Source: Plantactinospora sp. BC1 (GTDB lineage Bacteria; Actinomycetota; Actinomycetes; Mycobacteriales; Micromonosporaceae). Taken from it: 64,000 bases of DNA. The stretch lies in contig NZ_CP028158.1 of the NCBI RefSeq assembly GCF_003030345.1, positions 5,952,001-6,016,000 of the forward strand, in the 5' to 3' direction. This document shows, in pieces, positions 4,519 through 47,100 of the stretch (position 1 is the first letter of the stretch; every line of letters starts with the position of its first letter). Both the position numbers and the translations under genes were made by a program. The notes under the pieces were generated by a model that was not told the origin of the DNA, ran no database searches, and saw only the letters and a program-made list of their open reading frames with translations.

Positions 4519-5991
4519 CTACGGCCGGGCGGCCGGCGCGGGCCGGACCTGCTCGTCCGGGGCGGCGACGGCGGCCCGACGGCGGCCGGGGAGCGCCACC
4601 GCGAAGGCGAGCGCGACCACCGCGAACGCCACGCAGGCGACGAAGCCGGCCCGGAATCCGTTGGTGAGCGCACTGGGCTGGTCGGGCCCGGTGGAGAAGG
4701 AGACCGCCACGGTCGAGACGATGGCGATGCCGAAGCCGCCGCCGACCTGGAAGGCGGCGTGCACCAGCCCGGACGCCAGACCGGACTCCGACTCCGCGAC
4801 CCCGGTCAGCGCGACGATCGAGGCGGTGGTGTGCGCGATGCCCAGACCGAGACCGAAGATCACGAAGGGGAAGAAGAGGTCGCCGAGGTAGTCGCCCCGG
4901 ACACTGATCATGATCAGCATCGCGCACGCGACGCCGAGCATCAGCACCCCCGGCACGGCGGCCGGGCGGAACCCGCGCCGGGTGACGACCGCCTGCCCGA
5001 CGTACGCGCCGAGCACCGCCATCACCGGCATGATCGAGCCCAGGAAGCCGTACTCGATGGCCGAGTACCCCAGCACCTGCTGCCCGTAGAGAGAGGAGAG
5101 GAAGGAGAGTGAGAAGACCAGCATCGCGACGACGACCATCAGCAGATTGCCGGTGGCGACGGTACGCATCCGCAGGGTACGCAGCGGCACCAGCGGCGCG
5201 CTGGACCGGGCCTCGATCCCGACGAAGACGACCCCGAGGACGACCACCAGGGCGAGCAGGCCGGTGGTCTGCACGCTCGACCAGCCCGCGGCGGGCGCCT
5301 CGGAGATCGCGTACACCAGCGCCACGAGCGCCGCCGTACTGGTCAGCGCCCCGGCCAGGTCGAAGGTCCGCCGCCGCCCGTGGTCCCGGCTCTCCCGCAG
5401 CACCATCGGACTGACCAGCAGCAGCACCAGCACCACCGGTACGTTCACCAGGAAGACCGACTCCCAGCCGAGATTGCTGGTGAGCCAGCCGCCGACCAGC
5501 ATCGCCGCGGTGGCGCCGATGCCGCCGACCGCCGACCAGGCGGCGATGGCCTTGTTGCGCTCGGCCCCCTCCTCGAAGGTGCTCATCAGGATCGACAGCG
5601 CGCTCGGCACCATCATCGCCGACGAGACGCCGTGCACGGCCCGGGCCGCGATCATGACCTCGGCGTTCCAGGCGAACCCGGAGAGCAGCGAGGTGAGCAG
5701 GAAGCCGATCAGGCCGGCCATGAAGATCCGGCGCCGGCCCAGCAGGTCCGCCGAGCGGCCGCCGAGCAGCAGCAGACCTCCGAAGGTGAGCAGGTTGGCG
5801 GTCAGGATCCACTGCGCCGCGCTGGCGTCGAGGGCCAGCGCCGACTGGATCGCCGGCATGCCGACGATGACGATCTGCGAGTCGAGAATCACCATGAAGC
5901 TGGCGCAGCAGAGCACGACCAGCGCGGTCCAGCGACGTGGATCGCGCTCGCCGTGCGCGGTGGATGTTGCGGTTACCCCGGCTGGTTCCAT
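4519..5991 (-). CDS. DHA2-family (EmrB/QacA-like) MFS drug exporter
   Basis: About 490 residues with some 14 transmembrane segments. The first segment ends in the DSQIVIVGMPAIQ motif, which is motif C/D1-like for DHA2 drug:proton antiporters. GGRSADLLGRRRIFMAG is the conserved loop 2-3 motif. It is the best candidate for product efflux and self-resistance, comparable in type to SgcB of the C-1027 cluster. I chose the ATG at 5991 because GAGGAGGAG precedes it; a start upstream would read through that site. It ends 95 bases before the DUF899 start and begins 74 bases after the FAD monooxygenase stop. Confidence 0.85.
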   Translation of the reverse strand: MEPAGVTATSTAHGERDPRRWTALVVLCCASFMVILDSQIVIVGMPAIQSALALDASAAQWILTANLLTFGGLLLLGGRSADLLGRRRIFMAGLIGFLLTSLLSGFAWNAEVMIAARAVHGVSSAMMVPSALSILMSTFEEGAERNKAIAAWSAVGGIGATAAMLVGGWLTSNLGWESVFLVNVPVVLVLLLVSPMVLRESRDHGRRRTFDLAGALTSTAALVALVYAISEAPAAGWSSVQTTGLLALVVVLGVVFVGIEARSSAPLVPLRTLRMRTVATGNLLMVVVAMLVFSLSFLSSLYGQQVLGYSAIEYGFLGSIMPVMAVLGAYVGQAVVTRRGFRPAAVPGVLMLGVACAMLIMISVRGDYLGDLFFPFVIFGLGLGIAHTTASIVALTGVAESESGLASGLVHAAFQVGGGFGIAIVSTVAVSFSTGPDQPSALTNGFRAGFVACVAFAVVALAFAVALPGRRRAAVAAPDEQVRPAPAARP

Positions 5992-6065
5992 CTCCGCTCC
6001 TCCTCGTTCCACCGATCGGCACGACGGCCCGCGCGGCGACGGTGCCGGCGGGCCGTCGGGCCGGG

Positions 6066-7415
6066 TCAACCTCCGTTCGACCGGCGCAGGGTCGGAAACA
6101 AGACCCGCGAGACCATCGCCGGACGCATCAGGGTCTCCGGCCGGTCGACAAGACCGGCCACCCGCATGAAGGCGCGGGAGACGACCGGGTCCCGGGTCGC
6201 CGCGGTCTGCAACCTCGGCATGTAGGCGTTCCCCAGCCGTACCTTGAGGCCGCGCCGGCCGGCGACCCCGGGGAAACCGAGGTCGCCGCCGGCCGACATG
6301 TCCCAGGGCGGGTCGATCGCCCGGGCCAGGTCGCGGAAGTACCGCTGCGCGCCCCGCACGCCGTCCGCCAGGTACTGACGCAGCACGACCGCCCCGATCG
6401 CCGCCACCGTCATCCCCTGGGCGTAGATCGGGTTGAACACGCAGGCCGCGTCACCGAGCACGAGCAGCCCCTCCGGCAGCCGCGCCAGCCGCTCGTACCG
6501 GCGCCGGATGCTGCTGGGAAAGTGGAACGAGACCGGGGTGGTCAACGGCTCCGCCCGGCGGACCGACTCGAAGATCTGCGGCACCGGCAGCGAGCGGACG
6601 TACTCCAGGAAGCCGTCCGGGTCGGTCGGCGGCCGGTCACCGAGAATTCCGTTCAGCGAGACCGAGTAGCGGTCGGGGAGCCGGGCGAAGGTCGCCCCGC
6701 GCGGGTTGCCGGGGGTGGCGACCGAGATGATCGCGATGTCGTCGCCGATCGGGTCGATGGCCAGCGGTGCCTGGAAGTCGCAGGTGGTGTAGGTGAGGTC
6801 CATCCTGACCTCCTCCTCGCCGACCCGGGGATAGCCCAGCTCCGTCAACCAGCGCGGGGTGCGGGATCCGCGTCCCGTGGCGTCGACGACCAGGTCCGCC
6901 GGCAGCGACCGCCGGCCGCCGGGCCCGCCGTCGTCCCGCCGGTGCACCGCGACGCCGGTGATCCGGCTGCCGTCCGGGCTCGCTTCGAGCCCGACGACGT
7001 CCGTCCGGTCCAGAAAGTCGACATTGGACAGCTCGCCGACCCTGGCCCGCATCCGCTCCTCCAGCAGCCAGCGACCGGGCGAGATGCAGACCAGGTCGGT
7101 CTCCACCTTGCGGATCATCCGGCCGTTGAAGTGCCAGCCCAGGCTGGTACCGAAGTCGCGGGTCGGCACCCCACCGGCGGCCATCTCCTTGGTGAAGCCC
7201 GGAAACAGCTCCTCGATGATCTGCTGGCCGCGGGCGAGCAGGCCGTGGATGTGACGTCCCTGCGGAACGGCCCGGCGCGGACCGGTCGCGCCGACCAACT
7301 GGTCGCGGTCCACCACGGTCACACCGCGGTAGAAGTCCGCGAGGACTCGGGCGGCGAAGAGGCCGGCCACACTCCCGCCCAGCACCACCGCCCGGTCACC
7401 GACATGTTCGTTCAA
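6066..7415 (-). CDS. FAD-dependent monooxygenase / oxidoreductase (PHBH-like fold)
   Basis: The protein begins with a Rossmann dinucleotide motif (VVLGGSVAGLFAARVLADF). It continues with an ADLVVDATGRGSRTP segment and the GLLVLGDAACVFNPIYAQGMT motif that binds the FAD ribityl chain, so it is a single-component FAD oxidoreductase of the 2-polyprenyl-6-methoxyphenol hydroxylase type, about 449 residues long. Its role in the cluster is probably oxidation of the polyketide or of a peripheral aromatic unit. I chose the TTG at 7415 because GGGAGG lies five bases upstream and the Rossmann motif follows within ten residues. Longer ATG starts would reach the divergent gene. Confidence 0.75.
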   Translation of the reverse strand: MNEHVGDRAVVLGGSVAGLFAARVLADFYRGVTVVDRDQLVGATGPRRAVPQGRHIHGLLARGQQIIEELFPGFTKEMAAGGVPTRDFGTSLGWHFNGRMIRKVETDLVCISPGRWLLEERMRARVGELSNVDFLDRTDVVGLEASPDGSRITGVAVHRRDDGGPGGRRSLPADLVVDATGRGSRTPRWLTELGYPRVGEEEVRMDLTYTTCDFQAPLAIDPIGDDIAIISVATPGNPRGATFARLPDRYSVSLNGILGDRPPTDPDGFLEYVRSLPVPQIFESVRRAEPLTTPVSFHFPSSIRRRYERLARLPEGLLVLGDAACVFNPIYAQGMTVAAIGAVVLRQYLADGVRGAQRYFRDLARAIDPPWDMSAGGDLGFPGVAGRRGLKVRLGNAYMPRLQTAATRDPVVSRAFMRVAGLVDRPETLMRPAMVSRVLFPTLRRSNGG

Positions 7416-8023: not shown

Positions 8024-9262
8024 CACCAGGCGGGCCGCCCGGTCCTCCAGGTAGCGGCGCTCCAGCAGGCTCGCCGTGCGGCGCGCGGCGAGCCGGTAGC
8101 ACGAGTGCGCGGCCGTGTGGTCGCCCGCCATCTCCAGCAGGTGTGCCCGGGTGGCCTCCAACCGGTGCTGCCCGGCGAGCCGGCCGTCGGCGGCGAGCCC
8201 GCCGAGCAGGTTGAGTGCCGCCTGCGGGCCGTGCACCATCGCCACCGCCACGGTGCGGTTCAGCGCCACCACCGGGCTGGGCGAGACCTGTTGCAGCAGG
8301 TCGTAGAGGCCGAGGATCTGCGCCCAGTCGGTCTCCTCGGCCCGCGCCGCCTCCGCGTGCACGGCGGCGATCGCGGCCTGGAGCTGGTACGGCCCGGCCG
8401 GTCCCCTCGGCAGGGTACTGGTCAGCAGCGATATCCCTTCCCGGATGGCGTCCCGGTCCCAGCGGTCGCGGTCCTGCTCGCTCAACGGGATCAGCGTGCC
8501 GTCGGCCCGGGTACGCGCCGCGCGCCGGGCGTCGGTGAGCAGCATCAGCGCCAGCAGCCCGGCGACCTCGCCGGCCGCCGGCCACCGACGGTGCAGCTCC
8601 CGGGTCAGCCGGATGGCCTCCCCGGTCAACTCGCCGCGCTGCAACTGCGGCCCGGACGTCGCCGTGTAACCCTCGTTGAAGATCAGATAGAGCACGTGCA
8701 GTACGACCCGGAGCCGGTCGGGCAGCTCCCACTCGGGTGGCAGCCGGAACGGGATGCCGCTGGCCCTGATCCGCTGCTTGGCCCGGCGGATCCGCTGCGC
8801 CATCGTCGACTCGCTGGTCAGGAACGCGTTGGCGATCTGCTCCGTGGTCAGGCCGCCGACCGCGCGCAGCGTCAGCGCGGCCTGGACGGGCGGGGAGAGC
8901 GACGGATGGCAGCAGAGGAACAGCAGCCGCAGGGTGTCGTCCCGGTCCTCCGGGCGCTCGACGTCCGGGCCGGGTACCCACTGCTCGTCCGCCGGCAGCC
9001 GCGCCGCCGTACTCACCTCCCGGCGCCGTCGGGCGAGTTCGCTGCGGTACTGGTCGGCGAGCCGGCGCGCCGCCACCGTGGTCAGCCAGCCACGGGGGCT
9101 CTCCGGCACACCCTCGGCGGGCCACTGCGTCGCGGCCGCCACCAGCGCCTCCTGGACCGCGTCCTCGCAGGCGTCGAAGGTGCCGTGCCGGCGCACCAGC
9201 GTGGCGAGCACCTGGGGCGCCAACCGGCGCAACAGGTCGACGACCTCGCCGTCAATCTCCAT
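8006..9262 (-). CDS. ECF42-type RNA polymerase sigma factor with TPR-like C-terminal domain
   Basis: A 418-residue protein. Residues 1-180 hold region 2 (FDACEDAVQEALVAAATQWP, GWLTTVAARRLADQYR) and region 4 (LTLRAVGGLTTEQIANAFLTSESTMAQRIRRAK). The rest is the long C-terminal helical extension with YLIFNEGY, LLALMLLTDARR and SPVVALNRTVAVA that defines the ECF42 group. No anti-sigma gene is adjacent. In ECF42 the extension itself is thought to control activity. The DGPF gene at 7589 converges on it, and targets of such sigma factors usually include that gene. Start: ATG at 9262. A related module lies at 50449-52462. Confidence 0.9.
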   Translation of the reverse strand: MEIDGEVVDLLRRLAPQVLATLVRRHGTFDACEDAVQEALVAAATQWPAEGVPESPRGWLTTVAARRLADQYRSELARRRREVSTAARLPADEQWVPGPDVERPEDRDDTLRLLFLCCHPSLSPPVQAALTLRAVGGLTTEQIANAFLTSESTMAQRIRRAKQRIRASGIPFRLPPEWELPDRLRVVLHVLYLIFNEGYTATSGPQLQRGELTGEAIRLTRELHRRWPAAGEVAGLLALMLLTDARRAARTRADGTLIPLSEQDRDRWDRDAIREGISLLTSTLPRGPAGPYQLQAAIAAVHAEAARAEETDWAQILGLYDLLQQVSPSPVVALNRTVAVAMVHGPQAALNLLGGLAADGRLAGQHRLEATRAHLLEMAGDHTAAHSCYRLAARRTASLLERRYLEDRAARLVRGQAR

Positions 9263-9505
9263 GGCTCCATCATGCAACGAGCGGCCTGAGCACGGACCCC
9301 GGTCGGTCGGTGCGGCGGCACGCAAGCCAGCAAGTTGGAAGAATTCTCGCCACTGACCAGCGTCTATGGTGATGACGTGATCGAGGGATCCGGGCATCCG
9401 GGCAGCGATCGAGCGGCGCAGCAGCGACCACGACAATTCTGATTCCCGGTGCCCGCCCGCCCACATCCGGTTGATTTCGCGGATTAGCCAATGGAGGTAC
9501 CGACC

Positions 9506-38747: not shown

Positions 38748-38942
38748 TCAGCAGCCGCAGCCGTCGTTCGCCCACGGGGTGCAGTATCCGCTGCCGTCGT
38801 GGCACTGGCGCCGCTGCGCCTGCCCGCGCCCGCCGCAGCCGGTGGGCAGGCAACGGTACTGCGGGATCCACAGGGCCGACGCCTTCACCTCGGGGACGAC
38901 CAAGCCGACCAGCCGGTCGGTCAGCGCACGAAACTTCGACAC
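38748..38942 (-). CDS. Cys-rich small peptide precursor (putative)
   Basis: A 64-residue peptide. Residues 1-23 are a leader-like amphipathic part (MSKFRALTDRLVGLVV...) ending in A21-S22-A23, the -3/-1 pattern used by S26 signal peptidases. Residues 24-64 hold six cysteines (31, 36, 47, 54, 62, 64) and end DGCGC, with an RRQC and a GYC motif between. There is no long hydrophobic Sec signal. The GTG start has GGAGG fourteen bases and AAGG about seven bases upstream. It is divergent from the thioredoxin-ABC-peptidase operon, which supplies what such a peptide would need: disulfide chemistry, export and leader removal. I recognise no described family. No modification enzyme (lanthionine, radical SAM, YcaO) is nearby. 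Confidence 0.65.
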   Translation of the reverse strand: MSKFRALTDRLVGLVVPEVKASALWIPQYRCLPTGCGGRGQAQRRQCHDGSGYCTPWANDGCGC

Positions 38943-39019
38943 GCTTCACCTTCTTTCCTCCGCCGACCGCGGGGCGCGGTCGCGCGGCGCCGACGCTAGA
39001 CCGCCGCCGTACGTGATCA

Positions 39020-39048
39020 ATACATGGCGCGATGTAGGCGCCATGTAT
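39020..39048. promoter_or_regulatory. Inverted-repeat operator in the divergent promoter
   Basis: A perfect 11-bp inverted repeat, ATACATGGCGC (39020-39030) and GCGCCATGTAT (39038-39048), with a 7-base spacer. It is centred between the divergent peptide and thioredoxin genes and is a likely binding site for a dimeric regulator. The SARP at 42078 is one candidate, although SARPs usually bind direct repeats. Confidence 0.65.
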
Positions 39049-39105
39049 CCGAACGTGCGTACAGTCACCCGGCTGCACTTCGCCCCGGAGCTCGGAGGAG
39101 TACCC

Positions 39106-39636
39106 ATGCTGCCGATCCTGACCGCCGCCGTCGTCCTGGTCGGCGCGCTCGGCCTGCTGAACCTGGCCCTGACGCTGGGGCTGGTCCGACGGATGCGCCA
39201 GTACGGGCACCTGCTCGAAGGGCTGGAGCCGGCGGAGCTGGGCGCCTCGACCAAACCGGTCGGCTCGGCCGTCGCGCCGTTCACCGCGACCGCGCTCGAC
39301 GGGACCGTCGTCGATGCCGACTGGTTCACCGAGCCGGTCGTGGTCGGGTTCTTCTCGCCCGGCTGCCCCGCCTGCAAGGACCTGATCCCCGGCTTCGTCG
39401 CCGTCGCGGCTACCCGGCGGGCGCTCGCGGTCGTGGAGAAGGGGCCGGAGCCGGCCGACGAGTACACGGAGCCGCTGTCCCGGGTCGCCACCGTACTCGC
39501 CGACGAGCAGGCTCGCGGCGCGGTCGCGGCGTTCGGGGTACGCGCCTTCCCGGCCGTCTGCCAGGTCGACGCGACTGGCGTGATCACCGGGACCGGCGTA
39601 CACCTGGTTCCGTCGCACGCCCCGGTGGCGGCGTGA
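39106..39636 (+). CDS. Membrane-anchored TlpA/MauD-like thioredoxin
   Basis: A 176-residue protein with an N-terminal anchor (about 1-27) that places the domain outside the membrane, followed by a thioredoxin fold with the active site FFSPGCPACKDLIPG (CPAC) and the cis-Pro region VRAFPAVCQVD. The arrangement resembles MauD and TlpA, which handle disulfides in exported proteins; MauD serves the Cys-rich methylamine dehydrogenase small subunit. The obvious client here is the six-cysteine peptide encoded divergently. ATG with GGAGG eight bases upstream; coupled (GTGA) to the ABC gene. Confidence 0.85.
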   Translation: MLPILTAAVVLVGALGLLNLALTLGLVRRMRQYGHLLEGLEPAELGASTKPVGSAVAPFTATALDGTVVDADWFTEPVVVGFFSPGCPACKDLIPGFVAVAATRRALAVVEKGPEPADEYTEPLSRVATVLADEQARGAVAAFGVRAFPAVCQVDATGVITGTGVHLVPSHAPVAA

Positions 39637-41438
39637 GGCTGGTACGGACGCTCGGCAGGGCGGTCGGCCTCGCGGCCCGGGCCGCGCCGGGCGCCCTCGC
39701 CGTCCTGGTGGCGCTCACGGTGGCCGCCGCCGCCGTGCCGGTCGTGGCGGCCTGGTTCACCAAGGGCATGCTCGACGAATTGGCCAGCCCGCGACCGGCC
39801 TGGTCCGCCCTGGCCGGCATCGTCGCCGGGCTCCTGGTCGCCGGCCTGGTCGGCGCGGTGCAGCCGCACCTGTCGGAGTACGTGCAGGAAGACCTCGGAC
39901 GCCGGGCGAGCCTCGTCGCGCAGGACCGGTTGTACCGCGCGGTCAACCGCTTCCAGGGGCTCGGCCGGTTCGAGGACCCCGACTTCCTCGACCGGCTCCG
40001 GATGGCCCAGCAGACCGGCCAGGAGACGCCGGGCCAGATCATCCTGACCGCGCTCGGACTGGTCCGGACCAGCGTCACCATGGTCGGCTTCTTCGGCATG
40101 CTGCTGGTGGTCGCCCCGCAGATGGCCTGGATCGTCGTGCTGGGCGCCGTACCCACCTTCGTCGGGGAGGTGCGGCTCGCCCGGCGGCGGGTCCGGACGA
40201 CCCTCGAAATCACCGCGCTGGAACGGCGGGAGACGTTCTACGCCCGACTCCTCGGTGACGTGGCCGCCGCCAAGGAGATCCGGCTGTTCCACCTCGGCGA
40301 CCACCTGCGTCGGCGGATGAGGCGCGACCGTACGTCGATCAACCTGCTACACCGGCGGATGGACCGGTGGACGCTGCTCACCCAGGGCGGACTGGCCCTG
40401 GCGGCGGCCGGGATCGCGGCCGCCGGGCTGTTCTGGGCGGTACGCTCCGCCGTGGCCGGCACGCTGACCGTGGGGGACGTCTCCGTCTTCGTGGCGGCGG
40501 TGGCGTCGGTGCAGACCAGCCTCGGCGCAATGGCGACCGGCCTGGCCGTCGGGCACCAGCATCTGCTGATCTTCGAGCGGTACCTCGACGTCGTCCGCGC
40601 CGGTCCCGACCTGCCGCCGGCCGGGTCGCCCCGGCCGCTGCCCGGGTTGCGCCGTGGCATCGTGTTGCGCGACGTCTGGTTCCGCTATTCCGACGACCAT
40701 CCGTGGATCCTGCGCGGTGTGGACCTGACCATCCCCTGCGGCCAGGCGGTCGCGCTGGTCGGGGTCAACGGCGCCGGCAAGAGCACGCTGGTGAAGCTGC
40801 TGTGCCGCTTCTACGACCCGACCCGCGGCGCCATCCTCTGGGACGGCGTCGACCTGCGGGAGGTGCCGGTGGAGTCGCTGCGCGAGCGGCTCAGCGGCAT
40901 CTTCCAGGATTTCATGCACTACGACCTCACCGTCCGCGACAACATCGCCTTCGGCGACCTGGCGGTGGCCGACGACGAGCCGGCGGTGACCCGGGCCGCC
41001 GAGCGCGCCGGGATCCACACCGTCCTCGCCGGGCTGCCGAACGGTTACGACACCATGCTGACCCGGCTCTTCGCCGACGACAGCGCGCAGGCGGGCGTGG
41101 TGCTCTCCGGCGGCCAGTGGCAGCGGGTGGCACTCGCCCGCGCGCTCGTCCGGGACGAGCGGGACCTGCTCATCCTGGACGAGCCGAGCGCGGGGCTCGA
41201 CGCCGAGGCCGAGTACGAGATCCATCACCGGCTGCGCGAGCACCGGGCCGGGCAGACGAGCCTGCTCATCTCGCACCGGCTCGGCGCGGTCCGCGACGCC
41301 GACACGATCGTGGTGCTCGACGGTGGCGTGGTGATCGAGCAGGGCGACCACGACACGCTCGTCGCGGCGGACGGACACTACGCCCGGCTCTTCGCGATGC
41401 AGGCCGAGGGGTACGCGACCGTGGGGGCGCACCGGTGA
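39633..41438 (+). CDS. Export ABC transporter, fused membrane and ATPase domains
   Basis: 601 residues. The six-helix type I export domain (about 1-320) is followed by an ATPase domain with Walker A GVNGAGKST at 377, the signature LSGGQWQRV at about 491, Walker B DLLILDEPSAG at about 511, and the H-loop LISHRLGAV. No C39 peptidase domain is present at the N-terminus, so leader removal must be by another enzyme, and the S26-like protease gene follows directly (GTGA overlap). Transporters of this half-size type act as homodimers and often export peptides. Confidence 0.9.
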   Translation: MRLVRTLGRAVGLAARAAPGALAVLVALTVAAAAVPVVAAWFTKGMLDELASPRPAWSALAGIVAGLLVAGLVGAVQPHLSEYVQEDLGRRASLVAQDRLYRAVNRFQGLGRFEDPDFLDRLRMAQQTGQETPGQIILTALGLVRTSVTMVGFFGMLLVVAPQMAWIVVLGAVPTFVGEVRLARRRVRTTLEITALERRETFYARLLGDVAAAKEIRLFHLGDHLRRRMRRDRTSINLLHRRMDRWTLLTQGGLALAAAGIAAAGLFWAVRSAVAGTLTVGDVSVFVAAVASVQTSLGAMATGLAVGHQHLLIFERYLDVVRAGPDLPPAGSPRPLPGLRRGIVLRDVWFRYSDDHPWILRGVDLTIPCGQAVALVGVNGAGKSTLVKLLCRFYDPTRGAILWDGVDLREVPVESLRERLSGIFQDFMHYDLTVRDNIAFGDLAVADDEPAVTRAAERAGIHTVLAGLPNGYDTMLTRLFADDSAQAGVVLSGGQWQRVALARALVRDERDLLILDEPSAGLDAEAEYEIHHRLREHRAGQTSLLISHRLGAVRDADTIVVLDGGVVIEQGDHDTLVAADGHYARLFAMQAEGYATVGAHR

Positions 41439-41953
41439 GGACGGCGCTGGCGGTCTGCGGCCTGCTGATCGCGACGGGCGGCTGGGTCGGCTGGTTGCGC
41501 GCCCGGCTCGTCGTGGTCACGGTCGAGGGCGGCAGCATGGAACCGACGCTGCACGGCCGGGACCGGATCGTGGTCCGCCGCACGCCGGCCCGCCGGCTGC
41601 GGGTCGGCCAGATCGTGGTACTGGAGCAGCCGCGACCCGGGCCGCGACCCGGCGGTCCGACCTCCGGCGGCGGTATCCGAGGCCGTCGCTGGATGATCAA
41701 GCGCCTCGCCGCGCTCCCCGGCGACCCGCTGCCGCCCGGTGTCACAGTGGACGGTGGCGCCGCCTCGGTGCCGGCCGGCCGGGTGGTCGTGCTCGGCGAC
41801 AACCGCGACGCCAGCACCGACTCGCGGACGTTCGGGCCGGTACCACTCGACCAGGTGCTCGGCGTCGCGCTGCGCCGATACGCCGGAGGCGGACCCATCA
41901 TCGCGGAGACCCCTCACCGCCCGGCCGGGTCGGGCCCACCGGCCGCGGCCTGA
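41435..41953 (+). CDS. S26 signal-peptidase-like serine protease
   Basis: A 172-residue protein with one N-terminal helix (about 4-22), the catalytic serine Ser34 in EGGSMEPTL, the general base Lys89 in RWMIKRLAALPGD and the box E segment GDNRDASTDSR. All catalytic parts of a type I (LepB-like) signal peptidase are present, but the protein is short. Its operon position after a peptide-type ABC exporter suggests a dedicated processing protease for the Cys-rich precursor. GTG start overlapping the ABC stop. Confidence 0.88.
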   Translation: MRTALAVCGLLIATGGWVGWLRARLVVVTVEGGSMEPTLHGRDRIVVRRTPARRLRVGQIVVLEQPRPGPRPGGPTSGGGIRGRRWMIKRLAALPGDPLPPGVTVDGGAASVPAGRVVVLGDNRDASTDSRTFGPVPLDQVLGVALRRYAGGGPIIAETPHRPAGSGPPAAA

Positions 41954-42077
41954 GGCCCGGCACCGTCCACATCGGCCGGCCCGGTCCACAGGCCACTTCG
42001 GCCGCTGTGGATATTGAAGCTCTCCATCTCCCGTGGTACGCATACCTCACATGGGTCGACTGTCGGGGGAGGCGGCC

Positions 42078-44063
42078 ATGCGGTTGACGGTGCGCGTGCT
42101 CGGTCCGATCGAGGTGCATCTGCCGAGCGGGATCCACCCGGTGCGGGGGTGCAAGCCGGTCAGCCTCCTCACCACCCTGCTGTCCCAGGCCAACCGGTCG
42201 GTCAGCCTGGACCGCCTGGTGGCGGCGCTGTGGGACGCGGAGCCGCCCCGCTCGGCGGTGGCCAACATCCGGACGTACGTGCAGATCCTGCGTGATCTCC
42301 TGCGCGGCAGCTCGGTACGGCTGGAGCGGGAGTCCGGAGGCTATCTGCTGCGGGTGACGGAGGCCGACTGCGACCATCTCAGTTTCGCCCAGCTCGTCAC
42401 GGAGGCGTACGCCGAGACGGCCGGGCCGAGACGGACCATCGAACTGCTGGAGCGGGCCCTCCAGCTCTGGCGCGGCGCCGAAGCCGCGGCCGGGGTGCCC
42501 CGACACGGTGCGGTCGGCACCTGGTTGAACGCCCTGGACGAGCAACGGCTACGCGCGGTGGAACGCATCGCGGAGGCCCGGGTGGCGGTCGGCGAGCCGG
42601 ACCGGGCGGTACGCGACCTGGACGACCTGTTGGCGGTCGCGCCGCTGCGCAGCCGGGCCTGGTGGCTCAAGATTCTCGCCCACCACCGCCTCGGCGAACA
42701 CGACCTGGCACTGGCCGGCTACCGGTCGGCGGCGAGCGTCTTCCGCGACGAACTCGGCATCGAGCCGGACCCGGAGCTGACCGAGCTGTACCGGTCGCTG
42801 CTGAAGTGGGAGCCGGTCGCGATCGGTGGCGAGGCGACCCGACCGGCCGAGGTGACCCCGATCCGGCCGACGTCCGGCCCCGCCGCCAGCCCGCCGGCCG
42901 GTGACACCATCCCGACCCACGACGCGGCCCCGGCCGGTGACACCATCCCGACCGACGACGCGGCCCCGACCGGTGACGCCCGCCCCGTCGGCGGCGCCCC
43001 GCCGGGCCGGCCGGGCCGGCAGTACCGTCTCGTGGTCGCGACGCCCCGGCCGGAGTGGTACCCGATCGTGCACCGGGTGCCCGAGCCGCCGGCACTCGTC
43101 GGCCGGAACGAGGTCCTCGCCGAGCTGCGTGCCGCTCTGCTGACCCCGCATCGCGGCTCAGGGGCACGGGTCGAGGTCGTGCACGGTCCGCCGGGTGTGG
43201 GCACCTCGGCGCTCGCCCAGCGCGCCGCGCACGACCTGGCCGACGCGTACCCGGACGGGCAGCTCTATCTCGACCTGCGCGGGTGGCCGAGCGGGGGGCG
43301 CGCCGGTACCAGCCCGATCCAGGCGGTGCTGCGCCGGCTCAGCGTCGCCCAGTCGCCCGAGGACGTGCTGGAGGCCGGTGACCTGCTCCGTACCGCCAGC
43401 ACCGGCCGGCGCCTGCTGCTGCTGGCGGACAACGTCAGCACACCCGCGGAAGTCCGGCCGCTGCTGTCCCTCGCGACCGGCTGTTGTCTGCTGATCACCT
43501 GTGGGTACCCGCTGGGTGTCATCCCGGCCGCCCAGCGGCTCGCGCTCCGGCCGCTCGGGGTGGCCGACTCGGCAGAGTTGCTCCGCGGCATGCTCGGGCG
43601 GGAGCGCGGCGGCGAGGAACTCGACCATCTCGCGGTGCTGTGTGGCGGGTTGCCGCTGGCGTTGCGCATCGCCGCGGCCCGGCTCATCGACCAGCCGACG
43701 CTGCCCGCCGCCGCGCTCATCAACCGGCTCCGGGACGACCGTCGGGCCCTCGGCGAGTTGGAGGTCGACGACCTGAGCCTCCGCTCCCGGCTGGTCGGTG
43801 TGCTCCGCACGCTCGGCGCCGAGGCCCGCGGGGCGTTCCCCCGGCTCGCGGAACGCGGGGAGTTCGCGCTGGCCGACGCGGCCCGCCGGCTCGGCGCCTC
43901 GGAGGCGACCACCGAGGCGGTGCTCGACGAGCTGGTCCGTACCCACCTGATGGTCTTCACCCAGCACGGCCGGTACCGGATGCCCAGGTTCGCCCGGCTG
44001 CTGGCGGAGGAGCTGCGCGCCCGGCCCCGGTACCCGATGCTGGCCGGCCCGTCCTCGGCCTAG
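42078..44063 (+). CDS. SARP/AfsR-like regulator with BTAD and NB-ARC-like domains
   Basis: A 661-residue regulator. It has an OmpR-like winged helix (about 1-90: RVLGPIEVHLPSGIHPVRGCKPVSLLTTLL, ALWDAEPPRSAVANIRTYVQILRDLL), a BTAD helical domain (about 95-245), a Pro/Ala/Asp linker with a 12-residue repeat (about 270-310), and an NB-ARC/STAND-like ATPase (about 340-600). The Walker A, GPPGVGTSALA, has Thr where Lys is expected, so nucleotide use is questionable. SARPs activate secondary-metabolite and peptide clusters. Its position next to the peptide cassette makes that operon the first suspected target. ATG with GGGGGAGG upstream. Confidence 0.88.
   Translation: MRLTVRVLGPIEVHLPSGIHPVRGCKPVSLLTTLLSQANRSVSLDRLVAALWDAEPPRSAVANIRTYVQILRDLLRGSSVRLERESGGYLLRVTEADCDHLSFAQLVTEAYAETAGPRRTIELLERALQLWRGAEAAAGVPRHGAVGTWLNALDEQRLRAVERIAEARVAVGEPDRAVRDLDDLLAVAPLRSRAWWLKILAHHRLGEHDLALAGYRSAASVFRDELGIEPDPELTELYRSLLKWEPVAIGGEATRPAEVTPIRPTSGPAASPPAGDTIPTHDAAPAGDTIPTDDAAPTGDARPVGGAPPGRPGRQYRLVVATPRPEWYPIVHRVPEPPALVGRNEVLAELRAALLTPHRGSGARVEVVHGPPGVGTSALAQRAAHDLADAYPDGQLYLDLRGWPSGGRAGTSPIQAVLRRLSVAQSPEDVLEAGDLLRTASTGRRLLLLADNVSTPAEVRPLLSLATGCCLLITCGYPLGVIPAAQRLALRPLGVADSAELLRGMLGRERGGEELDHLAVLCGGLPLALRIAAARLIDQPTLPAAALINRLRDDRRALGELEVDDLSLRSRLVGVLRTLGAEARGAFPRLAERGEFALADAARRLGASEATTEAVLDELVRTHLMVFTQHGRYRMPRFARLLAEELRARPRYPMLAGPSSA
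42895..42970 (+). repeat. 36-bp tandem repeat inside the SARP linker
   Basis: Two nearly identical 36-base units encode AGDTIPTHDAAP and AGDTIPTDDAAP, followed by a partial third (TGDA). The repeat only lengthens the linker between the BTAD and NB-ARC-like domains. Confidence 0.75.
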
Positions 44064-44164: not shown

Positions 44165-46402
<2,238 letters not shown>

Positions 46403-46924
46403 CTAACTGTTTGCTCGTGCCGTTGGTTGCTTGGGTCCAAGATTGTCCGGGCGGTCGTGCCGGGCGGGCGGCGTGTGCGATCCGTCGTCGGGCGCGGCGG
46501 AGGCCGCCGCGACACATCTGGCGCACCTGCCCCAATAGACGACCTCGGCCTCGTCGATCCGGTAGCCGGACCCGTCGGGTGGGGTCAGGCAGGCGGTGTA
46601 GCCGGCCGCGCCGTCGACGTCGACGATGGCCCCGCAGGACTGACAGACGAGATGGTGGTGGTTGTCCCCGGTCCGCGTCTCGTAGCGCGCCACCGAGCCC
46701 GTCGGCTCGAATCGCCGCAGCAGACCCGCGGCGGTGAGCGCGTGCAGGATGTCGTAGACGGCCTGGCGGGAGACCTCACCAAGATCTTCGCGGACGACAC
46801 CGATGATCGAATCCGTGTCGGCGTGCGGACGGTCGTGTACCGCGGAGAGCACGGCGACCCGGGGGCGCGTCACCCGTAGCGCGGCCCCCCGCAGCATGCT
46901 CTCGAAGTCGGACGTCGTCGGCAC
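46403..46924 (-). CDS. furA: Fur-family peroxide/metal regulator FurA
   Basis: A 173-residue Fur-family repressor. The winged helix has LRVTRPRVAVLSAVHDRPHADTDSIIGVV and SRQAVYDILHALTAAGLLR, and the metal regions are HHHLVCQSCGAIVDVDG and YWGRCARCVAA with two CxxC pairs for structural zinc. It should bind upstream of itself and repress the furA-katG operon until oxidised. I chose the GTG at 46924 by comparison with the family start (VPTTSDFESML); a longer GTG start at 47005 is possible. A long, polar tail (about 140-173) is not conserved in the family. Confidence 0.9.
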   Translation of the reverse strand: MPTTSDFESMLRGAALRVTRPRVAVLSAVHDRPHADTDSIIGVVREDLGEVSRQAVYDILHALTAAGLLRRFEPTGSVARYETRTGDNHHHLVCQSCGAIVDVDGAAGYTACLTPPDGSGYRIDEAEVVYWGRCARCVAAASAAPDDGSHTPPARHDRPDNLGPKQPTARANS

Positions 46925-47100
46925 GCCGTGAAGTCTCGCGGTTTTTCTGGAATCAATCAAGTCTCGGCCCGGGTCTCCCGACCTCACGTCGGACCGGAGA
47001 GTCACACGTCACACAGCCGTGCGATCGAACGAACTCACAATCTATCGGACGACGGCCCGCACCGAGACCCCGGCGATCCGGAATTACCCCGCACTTCACC

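Follow-up and report, generated by a model that had tools for sequence, protein, structure and literature searches.

A conserved actinobacterial cassette of cysteine-rich peptide, thioredoxin-fold protein, ABC exporter and S26 protease in Plantactinospora sp. BC1

Organization of the locus

The 64 kb stretch of DNA from the soil actinobacterium Plantactinospora sp. BC1 analysed here (the window) contains a small gene encoding a cysteine-rich peptide that stands back to back with an operon for a thioredoxin-fold protein (TRX), an ABC exporter and an S26 protease, followed by a gene for a SARP-type regulator. Together these genes form a cassette which, with a probability that we put at about 0.78, matures and exports a secreted peptide with disulfide bonds, belonging to a large actinobacterial family of peptides whose leaders are conserved and whose cores vary. 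The peptide gene occupies positions 38748–38942 of the minus strand and encodes 64 amino acids from a GTG start, upstream of which lies the Shine–Dalgarno-like sequence GAGGAAAGAAGG. The N-terminal part of the precursor, MSKFRALTDRLVGLVVPEVKASA, is a leader of 23 residues without cysteine. The remaining 41 residues make up the predicted core, and its six cysteines all fall within the final 34 residues. The AxA motif at the end of the leader reads A-S-A, and cleavage is predicted from this motif to occur directly after Ala23, the last leader codon (38874–38876, minus strand). Coordinates, composition and divergent orientation are as given in an earlier reading of this DNA, referred to below as the initial annotation.

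The GC content of the peptide frame by codon position is 0.65/0.60/0.92 (GC3 0.92). Scanning the window for an aliphatic residue followed by P-x2-3-A-x-A and then by 18–75 residues with at least four cysteines, with a start codon in reach, recovers exactly one frame, which is this gene (38748–38942). Applied to 20 stretches picked at random from related genomes, each about 13.8 kb long, the same scan recovers none. The nearest relative of the window peptide, at locus L031, belongs to the same genus, is 75% identical and retains all six core cysteines. Over the 23 leader codons this pair differs by seven synonymous changes and one non-synonymous change (dN 0.021, dS 0.436, dN/dS about 0.05), and over the core by nine synonymous and 18 non-synonymous changes (dN 0.223, dS 0.448, dN/dS about 0.5). 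Judged from this single pair, the frame behaves as a translated gene under selection, with a strongly constrained leader and a loosely constrained core.

The operon begins 163 bases from the peptide gene on the opposite strand. TRX (39106–39636, plus strand, 176 amino acids) is a membrane-anchored protein with an N-terminal hydrophobic segment and a CPAC motif, both cysteines of which (Cys87 and Cys90) are invariant in 11 of 11 aligned sequences. Its profile matches in the PDB include ResA, TlpA and DsbE-type proteins. The likeness to MauD is weak: the score against the MauD model (NCBIfam TIGR02661) is 19 bits with a curated cut-off of 188.6, and of 11 relatives four match the model with E values of 1e-3 or lower, the lowest being 1e-9. 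On its sequence, TRX is MauD/TlpA-like and not MauD. The second gene (39633–41438, plus strand) encodes the ABC exporter, a protein of 601 amino acids with fused transmembrane and nucleotide-binding domains (Pfam ABC_membrane and ABC_tran) in which Pfam finds no C39 peptidase domain. The third (41435–41953, plus strand) encodes S26, a short signal-peptidase-like protease of 172 amino acids (PF10502, E=1.2e-22) that matches signal peptidase I structures. Its catalytic dyad, Ser34 in a GxSMxP box and Lys89 in a KR box, is invariant in 11 of 11 aligned sequences and places it in the S26 signal peptidase family. The TRX/ABC and ABC/S26 junctions are GTGA overlaps. Coordinates and Pfam thus agree with the initial annotation on the tight coupling of the three genes, the lack of a C39 domain and the shortness of the protease.

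The SARP/AfsR-type regulator (42078–44063, plus strand) contains a BTAD domain (PF03704, E=1.1e-27) and an AAA_16 match that lies under the Pfam cut-off. Its start is either GTG 42033 or ATG 42078, some 80–125 bases past S26, and the gene is therefore not translationally coupled to the operon; the initial annotation was right to place a SARP downstream and is corrected on this point. Within the divergent promoter, a tandem 11-bp repeat, GGCGCGATGTA/GGCGCCATGTA (39026–39047, plus strand), forms a candidate SARP operator, and all 22 of its bases are identical in L031. It is overlapped by a perfect 11-bp inverted repeat, ATACATGGCGC-N7-GCGCCATGTAT (39020–39048), each arm of which has one mismatch in L031. 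Searched for exactly, the pattern of this dyad is confined to loci of the organism's own genome and occurs in none of the loci fetched from other genomes. A family-wide search for SARP heptamer repeats with an 11-bp period gave 12 of 86 upstream stretches where 2.6 were expected. Periods of 9, 12 and 14 were equally raised, however (10, 11 and 11), and the signal was discarded as unspecific. The 22-bp tandem repeat is a possible SARP site and may be taken as a lead. Adjoining the SARP gene, a putative KatG catalase-peroxidase (44165–46378, minus strand) and, upstream of it, a putative Fur-type regulator (46403–47005, minus strand) were noted by eye.

Co-occurrence and content of the cassette

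The link between peptide and operon was examined in an independent test anchored on the ABC protein instead of the peptide, with a cut-off of E 1e-110 or better. At this cut-off 138 of the 354 genomes searched in the organism's bacterial family have the ABC gene. Sixty of the listed loci were taken, comprising the greater part of the first forty and another twenty lower in the list, with places away from contig ends preferred; none had been used to build the peptide profile. By hidden Markov model (HMM) profiles, TRX is found in all 60, S26 in 57, the peptide in 55 (E 1e-4) and the membrane protein MauE in 47; SARP is found in 41. Of the five loci where the peptide was missed, L214 and L216 hold short, divergent cysteine-rich frames (E 0.001 and 0.009, respectively). 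As controls, 20 further stretches were drawn from 20 of these genomes; they gave no peptide by profile or motif and no S26, and thioredoxin-like matches in two.

A second genus, very probably Streptomyces, carries the ABC gene in 37 of 199 genomes. In 20 of the 46 places listed there, TRX, S26 and MauE are each present in all 20 and SARP in 10, and the peptide is found in 16 by the HMM profile and in 19 when the motif scan is added. The association proposed in the initial annotation is thereby sustained, at 55 of 60 ABC-anchored loci against none of 20 controls and at 16 of 20 (19 with the motif) in the second genus. The cassette is also found on plasmids. At E 1e-80 the ABC search returns 29 plasmid records, 26 from Streptomyces (16 of them S. 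clavuligerus), two from Embleya and one from Nonomuraea. In the 10 of these loci that were examined, TRX, S26 and MauE are all present, with the peptide in all 10 at E 1e-3 and in nine at E 1e-5, annotated, where it is annotated at all, as a ‘hypothetical protein’. A tblastn search of plasmids with the single peptide gave no match at E 0.1, although the profile finds 10 of 10 at E 1e-3, and a search with one sequence is evidently too weak. The peptide lies close to its partners: in 67 of the 71 loci scored for both it is within 500 bases of a cassette gene. The median gap is 118 bases, and peptide and nearest cassette gene share a strand in 56 loci and lie on opposite strands in 15.

Starting from the peptide, a search of 200 family genomes gave a match in 108 at E 0.1, taken as mostly chance; eight places besides the window's own reach E 1e-3. 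From 20 fetched loci 21 frames were inspected, and 18 in 17 loci were accepted as convincing relatives; the other three (L042, L046 and L050) were judged to be chance and omitted from the peptide alignment, A1, which consists of the 18 relatives and the window peptide. TRX, ABC and S26 are all present in 10 of the 17 loci. Across a sample of the phylum, the ABC search finds 2 of 396 genomes, the organism's own and G222, so that the cassette is rare at that cut-off. The peptide profile also gives 2 of 396, a figure from 15 candidates scored per genome that is no fair count of the peptide. A contig scan with an ABC alignment keyed on generic ABC motifs (best identity 45% among the 80 loci kept) and was not used.

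The content of the cassette was defined by an all-against-all comparison of open reading frames of at least 70 amino acids in the 60 loci, counting matches of at least 60 bits. The recurring families in this BLAST comparison are ABC (60 loci), TRX (48), SARP (41), S26 (38) and MauE (37), and each remaining cluster is confined to at most six loci. As no other family recurs more widely, no further modifying enzyme is indicated; in particular no cyclase, dehydratase, radical SAM or YcaO family recurs. In the window itself, Pfam finds no class-defining lanthipeptide, lasso, YcaO or radical SAM enzyme among nine genes between 35.8 and 44.1 kb, and on this count the initial annotation was correct. 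MauE is a membrane protein of about 200 residues (PF07291, E 2e-22 to 3e-25, with three representatives passing the Pfam cut-off) and carries a CxC motif in 37 of 37 aligned sequences. Another complete cassette of the same organism lies about 4.1 Mb from the window (L164, C1:1868000-1887000), with TRX, MauE, a large SARP, ABC, S26 on the opposite strand and a peptide (9189–9371, minus strand) that begins MTRHVG and has eight cysteines; closely similar peptides are found in L199, L208 and L212. In L165 and L254 a second thioredoxin-fold gene immediately precedes the peptide gene, giving two per cassette.

Leader and core of the peptide family

In total 93 distinct peptides were collected, that of the window among them, three of which do not fit the leader pattern and are left out of the counts over 90. 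The leader consensus of the family is LADRLLxxxVPxxxAxA, with the variants LxDRLLxLVPxxxAxA and LxDRLLxxxVPxxxAxA, and P-x2-4-AxA closes a leader of about 24 residues in 84 of the 93. Leaders contain no cysteine in any of the 90, and the cores have a median length of 41 residues. Over 800 random pairs, leaders share a mean identity of 0.45 and cores one of 0.31. Cysteine accounts for 18% of core residues, with G, S, T and Y also abundant, and the spacing of the cysteines varies from core to core. None of 19 members of the family matches a curated precursor family in Pfam or NCBIfam beyond single chance-level hits (E 0.04 or worse).

The number of core cysteines is even in 82 of 90 peptides, with 79 having 6, 8 or 10, and at least eight are found in 54. 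Such even parity is predicted because disulfides pair cysteines. It persists in 54 of 59 cores after greedy clustering at 40% identity, and with a looser leader pattern in 85 of 93. The comparison residues G, S, T, Y, R, A and W are even in 30–46 of 78 cores (clustered at 70%). Single-linkage clustering at 40% collapsed the set to two clusters, one of them even, and was replaced by the greedy procedure.

Maturation, role and relation to known systems

The gene set and its co-occurrence, the leader and core anatomy, the catalytic residues, the cysteine parity and the selection on the peptide frame were computed; the course of maturation is proposed from them as follows. SARP would switch on both sides of the divergent promoter. 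The short, amphipathic-looking leader would then direct the precursor to the dedicated ABC exporter and not to Sec. Export by the former seems more likely because the hydrophobic stretch of the leader is short, with seven uncharged residues and a best 10-residue mean hydropathy of 1.5 (family median 1.3, maximum 2.3; one Sec-type example 2.8). S26 enzymes cut after small residues at −3/−1, as is established for signal peptidase I; the AxA lies at the place expected for such a cut, and the motif and conserved dyad suggest that the membrane-anchored S26 cleaves after AxA to release, in the window, the 41-residue core. From cysteine parity and gene content, the membrane-anchored TRX would form three disulfides through its CPAC motif, and in most relatives MauE would pass electrons onward from it. 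With three disulfides, the 41-residue core has a calculated average mass of 4466.9 Da (monoisotopic 4463.88). Export, then cleavage after A-S-A, then oxidation to three disulfides is the best reading of the sequences. The proposal of the initial annotation that the operon exports, trims and oxidizes the peptide is in this sense supported by the even parity, by the cysteine-free leader mostly ending in AxA and by the S26 dyad and TRX CxxC, each conserved in 11 of 11.

Several observations weigh against this reading. The cassette is missing within about 6 kb in 7 of the 17 loci with a convincing peptide (L035, L036, L039, L041, L043, L044 and L049, the last with three orphan precursors in tandem at 5502–6145). 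These orphans come from four genomes, all of which carry the ABC gene elsewhere, and this suggests that they are processed in trans. Conversely, no recognizable precursor is found by profile or motif in the family cassettes L172, L219 and L222, nor in L269 of the second genus; all four have ABC and TRX, and all except L222 have S26. The MauE HMM built for this analysis finds no match anywhere in the window, and MauE is lacking too at L031–L033, which hold the three closest peptide matches (4 of the 10 peptide-found cassettes lack it). Eight of the 90 cores have an odd number of cysteines. The leader pattern was used in finding and splitting the peptides, so that its regularity is partly one of selection; cysteine parity was not selected for. 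The short hydrophobic stretch of the leader does not exclude Sec, and TRX could reduce or isomerize disulfides instead of forming them. No immunity gene recurs in the 60 loci among reading frames of at least 70 residues matching at 60 bits or more, a result that a very short or fast-changing one would escape. Finally, no isolated or characterized product was found in the literature searched, which covered few subscription papers and is weak evidence.

Among the rival explanations, that of a chance small reading frame beside a transport operon has practically nothing left to it. Small GC-rich frames are common and TRX, ABC and S26 could serve another substrate, but the co-occurrence at 55 of 60 loci against 0 of 20 controls, the leader dN/dS of about 0.05 and the recurrence in a second genus already contradict it. 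A ribosomally synthesized and post-translationally modified peptide (RiPP) whose cysteines are engaged in thioethers or some other linkage, the MauD/MauE-like proteins being modifying enzymes of an unusual kind, would accord with the richness of the cores in G, S, T and Y. It is unlikely, for even parity is expected of cysteines paired in disulfides, the recurring enzymes are limited to the CxxC thioredoxin-fold protein and MauE with its CxC, both of redox type, and the enzyme families of such modifications do not recur. Slimmer still is the chance that the cysteines bind metal, in a secreted metallophore or a metallothionein-like peptide, and that TRX and MauE keep them reduced. The high cysteine content of the cores would suit such a function and thioredoxin-fold proteins can act as reductants, but cysteine spacing differs among cores and no metal-related family recurs near the 60 loci. 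The outer face of an aerobe's membrane, moreover, favours oxidation.

More serious is the question of what the peptide does. A bacteriocin-like, antagonistic role is the most likely, as far as the sequences indicate, because the cores diverge rapidly and a second precursor is present in 12 of 90 loci. The main alternative is a signal or developmental factor in which disulfides merely confer extracellular stability. It is possible, though we consider it doubtful: the lack of a recurring immunity gene and the presence of SARP in 41 of 60 loci speak for it, but variable cores and second precursors would be unusual if a conserved receptor had to be served, and no receptor-like gene recurs across the 60 loci.

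As the initial annotation held, the hallmarks of the lanthipeptide, lasso, YcaO and radical-SAM classes are lacking; those of the class IIa and C6-defensin types are lacking too, and no curated precursor family is matched. Pediocin-like class IIa bacteriocins have a thiol-disulfide protein (PedC) and an ABC exporter (PedD) in the peptide operon; their leader is of the double-glycine type and is removed by the exporter's C39 domain, and their core carries YGNGV. In the window, by contrast, the ABC protein has no C39 domain according to Pfam, the leader ends in ASA and the core has no YGNGV. Actifensin resembles the window peptide in its actinobacterial precursor of 69 amino acids, its six-cysteine core with three disulfides and the ABC genes and protease nearby (PMC6989792). 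The protease at its locus is subtilisin-like and is accompanied by a LuxR regulator and hypothetical genes; the available parts of that paper name no MauD/MauE or S26. A relation to actifensin-type defensins was rejected, since the C6 motif C-x5-12-C-x3-C-x9-10-C-x4-5-C-x-C (PMC6989792) occurs in 0 of 93 peptides. TMcin from Staphylococcus, compared by description (PMC13252029), likewise has an ABC transporter, a dedicated leader protease and a dedicated DsbA-type protein for the disulfide of a secreted bacteriocin. It differs in having one disulfide, a transmembrane helix in the core, a protease of the S2P clan and an ABC transporter split into ATPase and permease, and is a functional parallel built of other parts. 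In the maturation of methylamine dehydrogenase, too, a thioredoxin-fold protein and MauE are tied to a disulfide-rich polypeptide (for the role of MauE, see the passages in PMC7794033); here the substrate is a peptide of about 40 residues and TRX, at 19 bits, is far from the MauD cut-off of 188.6.

The closest precedent is the decRiPPter study of 2020, the available passages of which describe three uncharacterized candidate RiPP families in Streptomyces that contain MauE, one of them also MauD, with predicted precursors of at least eight cysteines and a proposed modifying role; a strict filter also required transporter, peptidase and regulator genes (PMC7794033). An actinobacterial cluster, MauE (in one family with MauD) and a cysteine-rich predicted precursor are common to both. 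Those candidates are predictions in Streptomyces only, and neither the logic of leader, AxA motif and S26 nor cysteine parity appears in the passages available. The window peptide has six cysteines and the window no MauE; among the relatives, 54 of 90 peptides have at least eight cysteines and 47 of 60 loci have MauE. Comparing descriptions and not sequences, we think that the decRiPPter MauE/MauD candidates are the same kind of cassette, and the idea was thus partly anticipated. The decRiPPter study alone, in the literature searched, treats MauE together with RiPPs, and the main text of a review of RiPP leader proteases of December 2023 (PMC10885120), covered by a term search, contains none of ‘S26’, ‘signal peptidase’, ‘MauE’ and ‘disulfide’. 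The cassette is genuine, is conserved and occurs widely in two groups of actinobacteria, and its leader protease is unusual. We lean, by a little over even odds, towards regarding it as a distinct and widespread class, in which a dedicated ABC exporter recognizes an AxA leader, a dedicated S26 protease cuts this leader after export, folding depends on MauD/MauE-type redox proteins, and variable cores, mostly of 6, 8 or 10 cysteines, evolve like weapons.

To our knowledge, bacteria have few disulfide-rich peptides, and genes for their folding machinery seldom accompany them. In the present case a single recognizable cassette marks dozens of cysteine-rich cores that are unlike one another (59 clusters at 40% identity) and offers a hook for genome mining. 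It also allows a direct test of an S26 protease as a leader peptidase, and may provide an expression toolkit for disulfide-rich peptides.

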